Source: Syntrophorhabdaceae bacterium PtaU1.Bin034 (GTDB taxonomy: Bacteria > Desulfobacterota_G > Syntrophorhabdia > Syntrophorhabdales > WCHB1-27). Taken from it: DNA of 6,356 nucleotides. Shown in pieces: positions 2,518 to 6,356 of the stretch. The notes under the pieces are model-generated. The model was not told the DNA's origin. It did not search any database and saw only the letters and a list, made by a program, of their open reading frames with translations. The stretch covers positions 1-6,356 of the forward strand of contig MVRP01000224.1 of assembly GCA_002067405.1 (NCBI GenBank), read 5' to 3'. Both the position numbers and the translations under genes were made by a program. Numbering within the stretch: the stretch's first letter is position 1; each line of letters starts with the position of its first letter.

Positions 2518-3901
2518 GTTCCAGCTTCGCATGAAAGCGGCCTTTGACAAGATGGAGGCCATACGCAAGAAAGCAGAGGCAGAAGGCCGCGCCCTTACCG
2601 AGGAAGAGATACAGGAGCGGGCAAACCTGAAGGCCGAGATCGAGCAGACCGAACGCGAAATGCAGTCCTTCGAGGCTGAGGAAGAGCTCCGCTCTCGTCT
2701 TTTCGGCGAAGGTACCGGCGAGAGCAGATCGCAGACGGCGGGAAATCCCGAAGGCGGCAGCAGGATCACCGTTGAGGACCAGCCCATATATCGCGGGTCA
2801 CCGGCAAGCGCACTCGGTCAGCAGCTTCTCGACATCCGCACAATGTCCAGACCGGACATATTCGGTGGCAACGAGGTAAGGGATGCCCGATCCCGTCTTG
2901 AGCAGGTCGAAAAGCGGAACCAGGCGAAAGAGGAAGAGCGGGCGAAGAAGGAAGGTCGGGCGGCCGCAACGGGCGGCTTCACCGTCGGCGTTCCGACCGA
3001 TGGCGGTTTCTTCCTGCAGGGTGAAACCTCTGTGGACCTCATGACCAACGGTTTCAACAACTCCGAAATCCTTCCCAGAACCGCATCCAGGACTCTGGGC
3101 GCCGGTTCTCAGTTCGTTGAGATATACGGGATCGATGAGACATCGCGCAAGACCGGTTCACGCGGCGGAGGCATCAGGGTTTACACCAACAAGGAACTCG
3201 GCGAATTCACTGCGAGCAAGACCAAGTTTTCCAAAATCCGCATCGAGCCGACGAAGCTCACCGGCCTTTACAACGCATCCGGCGAGATGATGCGCAATGT
3301 GACCTTTCTCGGTCAGGAAATGCGCCAGCTTTTCGGCGAGGAATTCGCGTTCAAGTGCCAGGACCTTTGCTATCGCGGTTCGGGTGTGGGCGAGGCCATG
3401 GGCATTATGGCGGCCGGCTGTCGCGTAGAAGTAGCGAAAGAGACCGGCCAGAAAGCCGCGACCATTCTCACCGCGAACCTTTCCAAAATGTGGGCGAGAT
3501 TCGTCGGCAGAAACCCTGTCTGGTTCATTAACCGCGATTGCGGTCCCGAACTGGATCAGCTTTCGATCACGGCCGGTACTGGTGCACTGGAACCCCGCTT
3601 CGTCACGTACGACGCTCAGGGCATCATGAGAATAAAGGGCGCTCCGGTCATCCCCATTGAGCAGTGTGAGACCGTCGGAACCGCCGGCGACATTCTTCTT
3701 GCCGACTGGAGTCAGTACGTCACGGCCAACAAGGGCGACATCAACGAGGCCATGTCCATTCACGTCAATTTCCTCTACGATCAGGAAACATACCGGTTCA
3801 TCTACTACTTCGACGGACAGCCCCGCTGGTCTTCGGCCATTACGCCTTTCAAGGGTAGCAACACCGTGAGCCCGTTCGTCACACTCGCGACGAGATCATA
3901 A
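2510..3901 (+). CDS. HK97-fold major capsid protein
   Basis: This is the shell-forming subunit of the head. Residues 1-65 are a charged, coiled-coil-like helix (MEAIRKKAEAEGRALTEEE at 15-33) resembling the delta/scaffold domain. Residues 66-122 are a Gly/Ser/Pro-containing linker, and 123-150 form a second very charged helix (EQVEKRNQAKEEERAKKEGR). The mature fold probably begins near AAATGGFTVGVPTDGGFFL (151-169). The E-loop region follows at about 207-240, and the P and A domains contain KGAPVIPIEQC (376-386) and FLYDQETYRFIYYFDGQPRW (421-440). The 463 residues exceed HK97 gp5 (385). The excess lies in the N-terminal region, which the protease encoded just upstream should remove. ATG 2510 follows AAGGAGG at 2497-2503. 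The predicted cleavage point near 150 is inference. Lys-Asn crosslinking as in HK97 cannot be judged without alignment. Confidence 0.95.
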   Translation: MNKFQLRMKAAFDKMEAIRKKAEAEGRALTEEEIQERANLKAEIEQTEREMQSFEAEEELRSRLFGEGTGESRSQTAGNPEGGSRITVEDQPIYRGSPASALGQQLLDIRTMSRPDIFGGNEVRDARSRLEQVEKRNQAKEEERAKKEGRAAATGGFTVGVPTDGGFFLQGETSVDLMTNGFNNSEILPRTASRTLGAGSQFVEIYGIDETSRKTGSRGGGIRVYTNKELGEFTASKTKFSKIRIEPTKLTGLYNASGEMMRNVTFLGQEMRQLFGEEFAFKCQDLCYRGSGVGEAMGIMAAGCRVEVAKETGQKAATILTANLSKMWARFVGRNPVWFINRDCGPELDQLSITAGTGALEPRFVTYDAQGIMRIKGAPVIPIEQCETVGTAGDILLADWSQYVTANKGDINEAMSIHVNFLYDQETYRFIYYFDGQPRWSSAITPFKGSNTVSPFVTLATRS

Positions 3902-3916
3902 AAAGGAGGTTTTGTC

Positions 3917-4579
3917 ATGCAGAAGATAAATAACCAGCACGTTGTAGTGCCTCTCCTGTGGCCCGACAGCCAGGACGGAGCACTTGTCGCCGATATTCTC
4001 AGCCTGAAAAACTATCGGCAGGCTGACATCTACATCATGATTGGCGCGACCATCGGCAAGGCCGGAGCCGTCACCCTGCAGAAGGGCACCAGTGTTTCGA
4101 GCGCGGCTACAGCCATGTCCTTCACCAAGTATTTCTCCACCGGTTTTGTCCTCGACTACGATGGCGCCTCGGTCGACACTCCGGCAGAGGCGGGTGAGAC
4201 CGTCACCGGCGCCGGCGGCGGCGTGGGTTACATCTACAAGGACCTGGGAGGCAGGCTCATCTGTTACGCCTTCAACGGGACGACCTTTGTCGACAACGAG
4301 GTCCTGACCTTCTCCGGCGGCAAGACGGCCGTGGCCAATGGCATCCAGAAGAACGAGGACATCATGGTCCCCCGGACGGCGGCGAGCAACACGTTCGATA
4401 TCGCCGCGGTCGGCAGCCAGATGTATTGCATCCCTGTTACCGCCGATATGCTCGGCGACGGGTACGATTGCCTCGAGCTCAACGTGGCCGATCTGGACAC
4501 GACGGAATTGGCTGCCTGGGCGGTCCTCAGCGATCCGCGATACATGGCGGAGATCCCGGAAACGGCAATCTACGATTAA
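3917..4579 (+). CDS. Putative capsid-associated (decoration-like) beta-rich protein
   Basis: This 220-residue protein starts 15 nt after the capsid gene and follows an AAGGAGG site (3903-3909). It has no signal peptide or membrane segment. Its pattern resembles small beta-sandwich proteins often encoded right after the major capsid gene of HK97-like phages. The N-terminal strand has SLKNYRQADIYIMIGATIGK (29-48), then AVTLQKGTSVSSAATAMSF (51-69). The C-terminal part has MYCIPVTADMLGDGYDCLEL (169-188) and DLDTTELAAWAVLSDPRYM (192-210). Between them, residues about 78-146 are Gly-rich (VTGAGGGVGYIYKDLGGR at 96-113, then LTFSGGKTAVANG at 130-142) and look like an inserted small beta module. Position and pattern suggest a capsid decoration or cement protein, but no diagnostic motif proves this. 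The gene itself is secure; the role is a moderate inference. Confidence 0.85.
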   Translation: MQKINNQHVVVPLLWPDSQDGALVADILSLKNYRQADIYIMIGATIGKAGAVTLQKGTSVSSAATAMSFTKYFSTGFVLDYDGASVDTPAEAGETVTGAGGGVGYIYKDLGGRLICYAFNGTTFVDNEVLTFSGGKTAVANGIQKNEDIMVPRTAASNTFDIAAVGSQMYCIPVTADMLGDGYDCLELNVADLDTTELAAWAVLSDPRYMAEIPETAIYD

Positions 4580-4584
4580 GGAGG
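4578..4584 (+). promoter_or_regulatory. Ribosome binding site fixing the start at 4590
   Basis: AAGGAGG begins within the TAA stop of the preceding gene (4577-4579) and lies 5 nt before ATG 4590. The reading frame is open upstream to 4338, but this site plus the signal peptide beginning at 4590 shows that 4590 is the true start. Confidence 0.85.
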
Positions 4585-4589
4585 GCATC

Positions 4590-5162
4590 ATGAAAAAGCG
4601 CTTCCTGACGGCCGTCCTGATCATCGGGATCCTCTTCGTGGCGACGACGCTATGGGCGGCTGAACTCAACAATGTCACTGGCAAGGGCGTTGACGGAAAC
4701 CTGGTCTTTTACGATGCTTCCGGGAACGAGATCAATACCTGGGATGCTACCAACAGGAAGCTGTCAATTCCTTCCGGCTCGACTCTCGAAGTATCCTCGG
4801 GCGGCACTCTTACCGCGAGCGGTACCACCACGATCACCGGCGGCACCCTCGTTAGGCCCACGATATCGGGCATGTTTCTGTCGATAAGCAGCAAAGTCCT
4901 TTCCCTGGCGGATTGGTACCTCTCCGCCGCGGACAAGCTGATCACCTTCTGGACCCTGAGCTCCGGGAGCAATGGCACGAACTATATGATCGCCTGCTCC
5001 GACACCGAGGGGAGGCTGCGTGTCATTCGCAACGACACGAACGGCTCCGTCGTCATCAAAGAGGCGGGGCAGACCGGCGTTACCATCGCCAAGGGCAAAA
5101 CCGCTGTGGTCATCCACAACGGCACCGATTATGTGAGGGTCTCGGGTGATGCGACTCACTAA
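4590..5162 (+). CDS. Small exported beta-rich phage protein with Sec signal peptide
   Basis: This protein has 190 residues. Residues 1-23 form a typical Sec signal: MKKR, a hydrophobic core (FLTAVLIIGILFVATTLW at 5-22), then Ala-Ala, with likely cleavage after Ala23. No lipobox Cys is present. The rest resembles virion fibre or spike proteins. The segment at 36-52 (GNLVFYDASGNEINTWD) is followed by RKLSIPSGSTLEVSSGGTLT (56-75) and a Thr/Gly-rich stretch to 86, as in the entry strands of beta-helical tail proteins. The C-terminal part (111-190) alternates short strands and turns, with VVIKEAGQTGVTIAKGKTAV (154-173) and HNGTDYVRVSG (176-186), like a small knob domain. It begins 10 nt after the decoration-like gene and its end overlaps the membrane-protein gene. 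Export is odd for a capsid-operon product. It could be a periplasmic or surface protein, or be anchored by an uncleaved signal. No family is recognised with certainty. Confidence 0.85.
   Translation: MKKRFLTAVLIIGILFVATTLWAAELNNVTGKGVDGNLVFYDASGNEINTWDATNRKLSIPSGSTLEVSSGGTLTASGTTTITGGTLVRPTISGMFLSISSKVLSLADWYLSAADKLITFWTLSSGSNGTNYMIACSDTEGRLRVIRNDTNGSVVIKEAGQTGVTIAKGKTAVVIHNGTDYVRVSGDATH
5135..5139 (+). promoter_or_regulatory. Weak ribosome binding site for the membrane-protein gene
   Basis: GAGGG lies inside the end of the preceding gene, 6 nt before GTG 5146 and 9 nt before ATG 5149. It is weaker than the AAGGAGG sites of the capsid genes. That fits lower expression or translational coupling for a multi-pass membrane protein. 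Confidence 0.45.
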
Positions 5163-6195
5163 AACAATAAGGGGGGCGAAAGCCTCCCTTATCTCCTTTT
5201 TCAGCCATAAGGACGCCCTCGTCCTTTTCGGCATATTTGCGCTCGCCTTCGTCAATTGGGGAGACAACGTCCTTCGTGGCCAGACCTACGAGTTTATCGT
5301 CCTGGGCCTGATGGCCGCCTCTCTCCTCCTGGGAGATGCGGTCCTGTCCATTCTCGGCCTCTATCTCTCCTGCTGGTTCGCCTACCTCATGTGGGCCGGG
5401 TTCTATGGAGCGATTCCCGCTGAGATCCTTTTTCAGTCCCTCGATACCATGACGTTCATTTTCGCGGGAATGGGCGTCTACATGCTCGTGCGCAGGGGCC
5501 AGATGGAAAGGGACCGCTATATGAACTGGATATGTACCCTGACGGCCATATTCTGTGTCCTTGCCCTCGCGCAGATAACTCTTTTCCGGATGGATGTCGT
5601 AGCTACTCTGGGGAACCGCAACTTCCTGGCTGCCTGGCTGGCGATATCCTTTCCCCTGTTCTTGAGACGGAAATGGATGCGCTTCATCCCCTTGATCGCC
5701 ATTTGTCTCCTCTGCACGAAGACCTCCTCGGCGATCTCGGCGGCGCTCATGGCGACTGCCTTTTGCCTTTGGGGATGGAAAGGCGCCGGAATAGCGATCA
5801 TCCCCGCCGTCGCTTATTACCTCGTCTTCAAGCTGTCCGTCCACAACCTTTCCTTGGGGATCCGACTCGAATACTGGCAGGACGCTCTTTCGAAGATCTC
5901 CAACTCCTGGCAGACAATCCTTTTCGGTGTCGGCCCGGGCGTGTACTGGAGATGGGGCAACGAATTTCATTCCGAACCCGTCTACATCCTGTTCAACCTT
6001 GGCATATTCGGCCTGGCTATAGTGGCCGCGTACATATTCAGGTCATTCAGAGCGAAAGCGGACAGGCGGCTTCAGGCGGCCTTCCTCGCCGCACTCATTG
6101 ATTCCTTCGGCAACCACGTGATGCACGTGGCTCTGACGGCGCTGCTGATCATCATCATCCTTGCCCTGAAAGATAGAACGGAGGGCGCAACATGA
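5149..6195 (+). CDS. O-antigen ligase/polymerase-like membrane protein (Wzy_C superfamily)
   Basis: This is a multi-pass inner-membrane protein of about 348 residues, with roughly 10-11 hydrophobic segments. Numbering here is from the adjacent in-frame GTG 5146. Signature features are TLGNRNFLAAWLAISFPLF (154-172), found before the central helices of this superfamily, and a periplasmic-loop stretch with Arg240 in GIRLEYWQDAL and LFGVGPGVY (259-267). It also has HSEPVYILFNLGIFG (275-289), which exactly fits the H[NSQ]-X9-G-X2-G pattern described for O-antigen ligases. Family members join or polymerise undecaprenyl-linked glycans at the periplasmic face. The protein is a little shorter than the usual 400 or so. 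GTG 5146 and ATG 5149 are adjacent possible starts; ATG is preferred. No later start keeps the first membrane segment. The gene overlaps its neighbours on both sides, and a terminator-like hairpin lies in its first codons. Ligase and polymerase cannot be told apart from sequence. Its place in a head operon is unusual. Confidence 0.8.
   Translation: MRLTKTIRGAKASLISFFSHKDALVLFGIFALAFVNWGDNVLRGQTYEFIVLGLMAASLLLGDAVLSILGLYLSCWFAYLMWAGFYGAIPAEILFQSLDTMTFIFAGMGVYMLVRRGQMERDRYMNWICTLTAIFCVLALAQITLFRMDVVATLGNRNFLAAWLAISFPLFLRRKWMRFIPLIAICLLCTKTSSAISAALMATAFCLWGWKGAGIAIIPAVAYYLVFKLSVHNLSLGIRLEYWQDALSKISNSWQTILFGVGPGVYWRWGNEFHSEPVYILFNLGIFGLAIVAAYIFRSFRAKADRRLQAAFLAALIDSFGNHVMHVALTALLIIIILALKDRTEGAT
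5167..5201 (+). terminator. Terminator-like hairpin with GAAA loop and T tract
   Basis: ATAAGGGGGGC (5167-5177) pairs with GCCTCCCTTAT (5182-5192) over 11 bp, with one G-U wobble (5174 with 5185) and a GNRA-type GAAA loop. After CTCC comes TTTTT (5197-5201). An A-rich tract (CTAAAACAAT) precedes the stem, so the reverse strand also shows a stem followed by a T-rich tail. The stem starts 4 nt after the stop of the 4590-5162 gene, where an intrinsic terminator would be expected, but it also falls inside the N-terminal codons of the membrane-protein gene. The T tract is offset 4 nt from the stem, so partial termination is more likely than complete termination. Confidence 0.55.
6180..6184 (+). 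promoter_or_regulatory. Ribosome binding site for the last gene
   Basis: GGAGG lies 7 nt before ATG 6192, inside the final codons of the membrane-protein gene. Together with the ATGA overlap and the signal peptide that begins at 6192, it supports this start. Confidence 0.75.
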
Positions 6196-6356
6196 AAAAA
6201 CTCATCCTTTTCGCAATTATCCTGCTCATCCTTGCCCCGGTCATGGCCATGGGGGCGGGGACGGGAACATACACGACGTCCTATAACACGGTTTGGGACA
6301 ACACCTCATCTCTGGCCAAGATAAAGGTCCTGACGGTTTCCATTACCGACGACACC
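6192..6356 (+). CDS. Second Sec-signal protein, 5' part only
   Basis: Fifty-five codons are present and the frame is still open at the window end. The product begins MKKLILFAIILLILAPVMA (1-19), a clear Sec signal peptide with a short basic start, a Leu/Ile-rich core and an Ala-based cleavage site, most likely after Ala19. The visible mature part, GAGTGTYTTSYNTVWDNTS (21-39) then AKIKVLTVSITDDT, is polar, rich in Thr, Ser and Gly, and probably beta-stranded. Its ATG overlaps the stop of the membrane-protein gene (ATGA), and a good GGAGG site precedes it, so it is translationally linked to that gene. It is too short to assign to a family. With the 4590 gene, it makes two exported beta-rich proteins flanking one membrane enzyme. 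Confidence 0.8.
   Translation, partial: MKKLILFAIILLILAPVMAMGAGTGTYTTSYNTVWDNTSSLAKIKVLTVSITDDT

Follow-up and report, generated by a model that had tools for sequence, protein, structure and literature searches.

A WaaL-like membrane enzyme gene coupled to exported, often fibre-like proteins in the late head gene clusters of diverse phages

The closest described systems to the locus analysed here, a three-gene block around a polytopic membrane enzyme (P0002, alias Wzy-like) in a phage head gene cluster on contig MVRP01000224.1 of Syntrophorhabdaceae bacterium PtaU1.Bin034 (the whole stretch of 6,356 nucleotides is referred to as the window), are the pilin systems of TfpO/PilO, TfpM and PglS. 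TfpO, TfpM and PglS are described as WaaL-like and often encoded near their one substrate, TfpO and TfpM being without extra PglL domains (PMC12645811), and PglS, modelled on WaaL, is inactive on change of the equivalent His (PMC12800693). Phages are known to alter the glycans of their hosts, and for some of them glycosylation of the phage particle itself has been proposed. Phage-borne, polytopic, O-antigen ligase-like proteins are described for D3 and VarioGold; the D3-type seroconversion unit is expressed apart from the late genes, together with the inhibitor Iap and the O-acetylase Oac, and the VarioGold gene belongs to a supposed moron cluster and is oriented against the late genes (PMC9658991). 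Glycosylation of the capsid has been suggested for mycobacteriophage Maravista, by phage genes that would modify a phage structural protein with sugars (PMC11256854).

The present locus shares features with each of these systems. As in the TfpO/PilO, TfpM and PglS systems, a WaaL-like enzyme is encoded beside one exported protein (PMC12645811, PMC6385209), and as in TfpO and TfpM, neither a PglL_A nor a Wzy_C_2 domain was found in the window's enzyme (PMC12645811). However, the phage partner is fibre-tip-like and not a pilin, the genes lie in phage head clusters, the enzyme has no sequence match to a named family, and the transfer itself is what we infer. Compared with WaaL (7tpg), the phage enzyme is shorter, phage-borne and coupled to an exported protein, and unlike the VarioGold gene it lies on the late strand. 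In contrast to the Maravista case, whose glycosyltransferases are of a kind that acts in the cytoplasm, transfer here would take place outside the inner membrane and would concern a preassembled glycan. The kind of enzyme is known; the new variation is that, in late head clusters of various phages, its gene is coupled to that of an exported and often fibre-like partner. A search of the open-access literature brought up no description of such a pair, which does not prove that there is none.

The block consists of three open reading frames, encoding an exported beta-rich protein (SP-beta), the enzyme and the start of a second exported protein (SP2), and follows the preceding gene after a gap of 10 bases (Table 1). 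The open reading frame coordinates confirm the arrangement proposed in the initial annotation, namely a Sec-signal, a polytopic and a Sec-signal product joined by overlapping starts and stops. The stop of the enzyme gene and the start of SP2 share 4 bases (6192-6195), as they do in L001, L002, L016 and L017, and an alternative in-frame GTG start of the enzyme gene at 5146 is possible. The portal, protease and capsid genes named upstream were likewise recovered with Pfam (portal PF04860, 3.8e-93; S78 protease PF04586, 2.8e-51; HK97 capsid PF05065, 4.2e-24), and the placing of the block within a late structural gene cluster, with products directed to the envelope, is supported. The pair of SP-beta and enzyme corresponds to no family in Pfam, PHROGs, NCBIfam or PADLOC, the last of which gave no match for 6 proteins.

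Besides the window, the enzyme was found in 11 contigs (L001-L006, L013, L016, L017, L018 and L020), L016 and L017 being close relatives and L007-L009, L014, L015, L019, L021 and L024 duplicate copies of contigs already counted. When P0002 or P0001 was used as a single sequence to scan viral contigs, no relative emerged; the relatives in viral contigs came from alignment-based scans, and the protein searches scored at most about 8000 enzyme candidates. With tblastn, 50,697 phage records gave no match for the enzyme family (P0002, P0053 and P0054; E <= 0.01) or for P0001, P0055 and the SP2 of L020 (E <= 0.001). In 10 of the 11 contigs (L017 by its likeness to L016) the enzyme gene belongs to a group of head genes, while the L002 contig starts just before it. 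Since the major head proteins of nine contigs belong to five PHROG families (10, 212, 334, 264 and 283; none is shown by L002 and L017), the phages bearing the enzyme are far apart; PHROGs was run on chosen genes only, and the other gene names in the fetched loci were assigned by reading. Recurrence beside the head genes of unrelated phages, on which the initial annotation had made its proposal depend, was put to the test and held.

Signal peptides were called by a rule of our own and by eye, not with SignalP. The upstream neighbour of the enzyme is exported in nine of the 11 contigs (10 of 12 with the window, by reading), the downstream neighbour in six of 10 (L001, L002, L013, L016, L017 and L020, the L005 contig ending there; seven of 11 with the window), and at least one neighbour in all 11 (12 of 12 with the window), and this partner may be the substrate of the enzyme. 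By the rule, 13 of 23 same-strand enzyme neighbours were positive versus four of 133 other same-strand genes in the same stretches of the 12 contigs (Fisher p 6.7e-10), a count whose genes are not fully independent because L016 and L017 are close. Four of the 10 rule-negative neighbours (both in the window, the upstream one in L002 and the downstream one in L020) were read as failures of the gene caller or the rule, giving 17 of 23, although the 133 other genes were not re-read likewise. The trio suggested at first is not the conserved unit: the enzyme has an exported gene on either side in five of 12 contigs (window, L001, L002, L013 and L020), against a directly upstream one in 10 of 12, and the second exported protein varies by lineage. 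The upstream exported gene overlaps the enzyme gene in eight of the 10 contigs that have it. The overlap measures exactly 14 bases in the window and in L001, L002 and L006; in L018 and L020 the two genes are 8 and 42 bases apart, respectively. The SP-beta profile matches the upstream exported proteins of L001, L002, L003, L004, L006 and L020 (E <= 0.001).

The C-terminal domain of SP-beta is akin to phage fibre-like proteins by both predicted structure and sequence. The SP-beta model has a predicted local distance difference test value of 83.0 and a predicted template modelling score of 0.54, so that the domains are surer than their arrangement. Against a library of predicted viral structures it gave 111 matches at E <= 0.001; the best 50 of these are mostly without a functional name, the named ones including tail, tail-fibre, baseplate and tail-collar proteins, and a few of the matches are giant-virus proteins. 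No match in the PDB reached E 0.001; the strongest were to 6o38, a chaperone-substrate complex (2.6e-3), and to 9ny6, a phage capsid spike (4.3e-3). A protein search with SP-beta found 24 other proteins. Relatives of the C-terminal domain are common in viral contigs: the scan gave 130, of which the best 80 were kept with flanks of up to 4 kb, many of the unexported loci being mutually related. The exported form occurs in three of the 80 loci (L020, L021 on the contig of L001, and L024 on the contig of L002), and the enzyme adjoins in all three; the other 77 have neither a signal peptide nor the enzyme within the fetched flanks. The copy in L024 starts at the contig edge and fails the signal rule for want of a basic residue, yet has a hydrophobic stretch and a cleavage-like site. 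Within the kept set of 80 loci, the beta domain is therefore exported where, and only where, the enzyme adjoins, and this is the comparison least open to bias.

The exported protein and the enzyme also vary together. Over 11 pairs, four of which were joined across two protein searches only by the equal size of their source contig, distances computed from the final 92 residues of the exported proteins correlate with enzyme distances (Mantel r 0.87, p 2e-4; Spearman 0.47), and distances of the stem do so more weakly (r 0.44, p 0.008; Spearman 0.23). Between the window and three close relatives, identity is 78-85% for the enzyme, 96-98% for the C-terminal domain and 30-42% for the stem. In these sequences the stem is swapped, and the C-terminal domain and the enzyme travel together.

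For the enzyme, the best fold match of the predicted model is WaaL (structure 7tpg), with about 14% identity across the aligned part, and the model has a WaaL-type membrane fold with a conserved Arg/Arg/His set (Table 1). The label O-antigen ligase/polymerase-like given at first stands on this predicted structure, but no family library names the protein: P0002 did not match Pfam PF04932 (Wzy_C) at E <= 1, and no O-antigen ligase or O-oligosaccharyltransferase family was found for it in Pfam, PHROGs or NCBIfam. Among enzyme relatives, PF04932 is reached below its cut-off of 31.7 bits by P0025 (24.6 bits) and L018 (17.3 bits). A profile of the enzyme family retrieved nothing from the PDB sequences up to E 10.

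We read the block, tentatively and with slightly more doubt than belief, as a late export-and-glycosylate cassette in which the exported protein receives a lipid-linked glycan of the host. The acceptor role is taken from the pilin systems because the layout is the same, with an exported protein followed by an overlapping WaaL-like enzyme. SP-beta, with its phage fibre-tip-like domain behind a Sec signal, would reach the periplasm, where the WaaL-fold enzyme would, by analogy, transfer a host undecaprenyl-diphosphate-linked glycan onto it. The glycan-bearing SP-beta would meet the progeny only at lysis and, as a guess, would most likely coat the virion or mask debris, so that fewer progeny are lost. 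Among the possibilities offered in the initial annotation, that of exported proteins as targets of the enzyme fits best, given the upstream and usually overlapping partner, the co-varying domain and the His-type residues; the acceptor role itself stays presumptive.

Several observations weigh against this reading. Capsid and tail assembly are cytoplasmic. The Foldseek match of the enzyme model to WaaL is weak (E 0.086), the equivalence of R173, R239 and H274 with R191, R265 and H313 of 7tpg, which have a similar order and spacing, is a possible one drawn from order and not from superposition, and an invariant Glu lies two residues from the candidate His. L016 and L017 have no exported gene upstream of the enzyme. 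The SP-beta profile does not recognise the exported proteins encoded upstream of the enzyme in L005, L013 and L018, where the partner is accordingly another protein or one too diverged. Co-variation supports a unit without proving contact, because linked neighbours would co-vary too. No acceptor site stands out in the SP-beta sequences, and the Ser/Thr content of the exported forms (24%, 10 proteins) equals that of the unexported relatives (25%, 77 loci), for which reason Ser/Thr richness was discarded as evidence of glycosylation.

That tailed phages encode a dedicated extracytoplasmic protein glycosylation, with a WaaL-fold transferase that moves host surface glycan onto an exported acceptor derived from a fibre tip, the product coating progeny or debris at lysis, is possible but doubtful. 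If true, a structural domain of tailed phages would be matured outside the cytoplasm, and this would be, to our knowledge, the first phage-encoded pair of O-oligosaccharyltransferase and substrate. That tailed phages without close kinship keep the pair among their late head genes suggests that part of the lytic cycle takes place in the envelope and has been overlooked by annotation. Transfer to protein, if demonstrated, would be something new, and a compact O-oligosaccharyltransferase with its natural partner would be useful in glycoengineering.

The main alternative to the export-and-glycosylate cassette, somewhat unlikely and among the possibilities of the initial annotation, is surface remodelling, in which a phage glycan ligase alters the lipopolysaccharide or another surface glycan of the host late in infection, preventing re-adsorption to debris, with the exported proteins as accessories that bind the glycan, the ligase or the receptor. 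WaaL as the best fold match agrees with this, and so do further genes of the L001 phage: a GT2 glycosyltransferase with a methyltransferase-like part (13188-14429; PF00535, 5.6e-26) and a weaker glycosyltransferase-like gene (14426-15091) in the tail gene cluster, along with L010 1991-4048 (on the contig of L001), whose product combines a beta-helix with a polysaccharide-deacetylase match and starts with a signal-like N-terminus. O-antigen ligase-like genes are also known in phages D3 and VarioGold (PMC9658991). By itself, however, surface remodelling leaves the coupling to an exported protein and the tracking of domain and enzyme unexplained.

The fibre-tip-like fold, the Sec signal and the late gene position would also suit an exported domain that binds and hides the phage receptor from inside the envelope, the enzyme being a secondary helper. 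This is improbable, as it leaves the coupled enzyme unexplained and no second copy of the domain occurs in the available sequence of the L001, L006 and L002 phages, where the only other match below E 0.001 is the SP2 of L002 (1.5e-4); SP-beta as a decoy copy of the phage's own tip was rejected on the same ground. Slightly less probable still is lysogenic conversion as in Pseudomonas phage D3, in which the gene would alter the O-antigen of the lysogen. The L020 contig has a tyrosine integrase, and L002 looks like a prophage, with an adenylosuccinate synthetase gene after the phage genes (by reading), but no tyrosine or serine recombinase match was obtained in the L001, L013, L016 and L018 records or the L006 contig, records that are possibly fragments. 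Moreover, the enzyme lies on the late strand within the head genes, not in a separate unit as described for VarioGold (PMC9658991), and the block products have no library match to Iap/Oac-type genes. Ordinary virion parts whose uncleaved hydrophobic N-termini serve assembly or membrane contact at entry are very improbable, for although signal-like N-termini occur in the virion-like proteins L013 10150-12759 (by rule) and L018 9097-10266 (by eye), the exported proteins show the three classical regions (basic, hydrophobic, A-x-A-like), and no locus of the domain scan had the signal without an adjoining enzyme.

Table 1. Features of the block and its surroundings, in window coordinates.
Feature	Position	Strand	Length	Remarks
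Unnamed gene before the block	3917..4579	+	220 amino acids	unknown family; the 'decoration-like' gene of the initial annotation
SP-beta, exported beta protein	4590..5162	+	190 amino acids	beta-rich; N-terminus MKKRFLTAVLIIGILFVATTLWAAELNN
Sec signal peptide of SP-beta	4590..4661	+	residues 1-24	basic start, hydrophobic stretch, A-x-A-like site; read from sequence, not SignalP
C-terminal domain of SP-beta	4872..5159	+	about residues 95-190	fibre-tip-like, from viral structure matches and sequence relatives
Overlap of SP-beta end and enzyme start	5149..5162	+	14 bases	
Membrane enzyme, WaaL fold predicted (P0002)	5149..6195	+	348 amino acids	polytopic
Terminator-like hairpin	5167..5192	+	11 pairs	T-rich tail; immediately follows the SP-beta stop, within the enzyme gene
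R173 codon	5665..5667	+		candidate diphosphate-binding Arg; nearly invariant in 26 sequences
R239 codon	5863..5865	+		candidate diphosphate-binding Arg; invariant in 26 sequences, column invariant in 17 diverse ones
H274 codon	5968..5970	+		candidate catalytic His; invariant in 26 sequences, column invariant in 17 diverse ones
SP2, start of second exported protein	6192..6356	+	55 amino acids	open at window end; N-terminus MKKLILFAIILLILAPVMAMGAGTG

In the earlier proposal the overlaps place the three genes on one late transcript, but the hairpin after the SP-beta stop, which that proposal had missed, makes equal expression of SP-beta and enzyme from such a transcript uncertain. The stretch has a folding energy of -22.5 kcal/mol (z -4.4). 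Five terminator-like sites were observed in the region versus 2.2 expected from shuffling, so that the site count alone tells little. Hairpins of different sequence occur at the same place in L001 (after 9957; -16.5, z -2.2) and L020 (after 4576; -19.3, z -3.8), and in the window and L001 the hairpin lies inside the enzyme coding sequence. For comparison, the stretches that follow the ends of 76 other genes in six loci average -7.6, three of them falling below -19.3. A family-wide element was rejected, since the hairpin is strong in the window, L001 and L020 but absent in nine other folded loci (z -1.6 to +1.5), and Rfam gave no match over 3850-6356. The hairpin may end or protect most transcripts after SP-beta, which would yield much SP-beta and little enzyme.

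As far as its sequences go, SP2 is a variable companion that differs between lineages. Beyond the signal, the window's SP2 is weakly similar to the SP2 of L020 (31% over 54 residues; E 3e-4 when compared with five sequences), and L001 and L020 have SP2 proteins related to each other (29% over 129, E 1e-7). For L013, SP2 resembles proteins of L051 and L052 that are not exported (34%, 1e-11), and for L002 and L016 the fetched loci gave no SP2 match beyond their own copies and L017. The gene before the block had been called decoration-like, a name unsupported by the libraries searched: its product matched nothing in Pfam, PHROGs (best E 0.073) or NCBIfam.

In the SP-beta family, a C-terminal Thr is present in 18 of 20 exported forms, where its codon falls within or close to the overlap that the gene forms with the beginning of the enzyme gene, and also in one unexported relative; the Thr of the C-terminal DATH was rejected as an acceptor, as it falls within that overlap and is present in the unexported L028 protein too. 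The SP-beta-like P0046, with two member sequences on two contigs, has a C-terminus TPTALLAIIIIALMERERKEGT that resembles the end of the enzyme, as if the intervening part had been deleted, or is an assembly artefact.

The L006 phage is represented by contig C36 of G006 (L006, L103 and L104), 40,012 bases long with ends that share about 470 bases without being identical, in a metagenome-assembled genome bearing Spo0A. This genome gave no match to LpxC or Omp85, the ribosomal control being found. The contig had no integrase or resolvase match, and because it reads as a 40-kb phage with shared ends and no host gene was seen, it is perhaps only binned there. The argument that the L006 host lacks lipopolysaccharide, which could then not be the acceptor, was dropped for that reason.

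The two proteins of L013 (10150-12759) and L018 (9097-10266) with signal-like N-termini are large virion-like proteins of the tail region in cassette phages, and the export of structural proteins may reach beyond the cassette. The deacetylase-like protein of L010 (1991-4048, minus strand, 685 amino acids, deacetylase match 9.7e-7) lies near tail genes and is possibly an exported glycan-modifying spike. On the contig of L002, a reverse transcriptase (L012 4148-6799; phrog_1423, 2.1e-116) follows a tail-end gene in an arrangement like that of a diversity-generating retroelement and is itself followed by the host-type adenylosuccinate synthetase gene.
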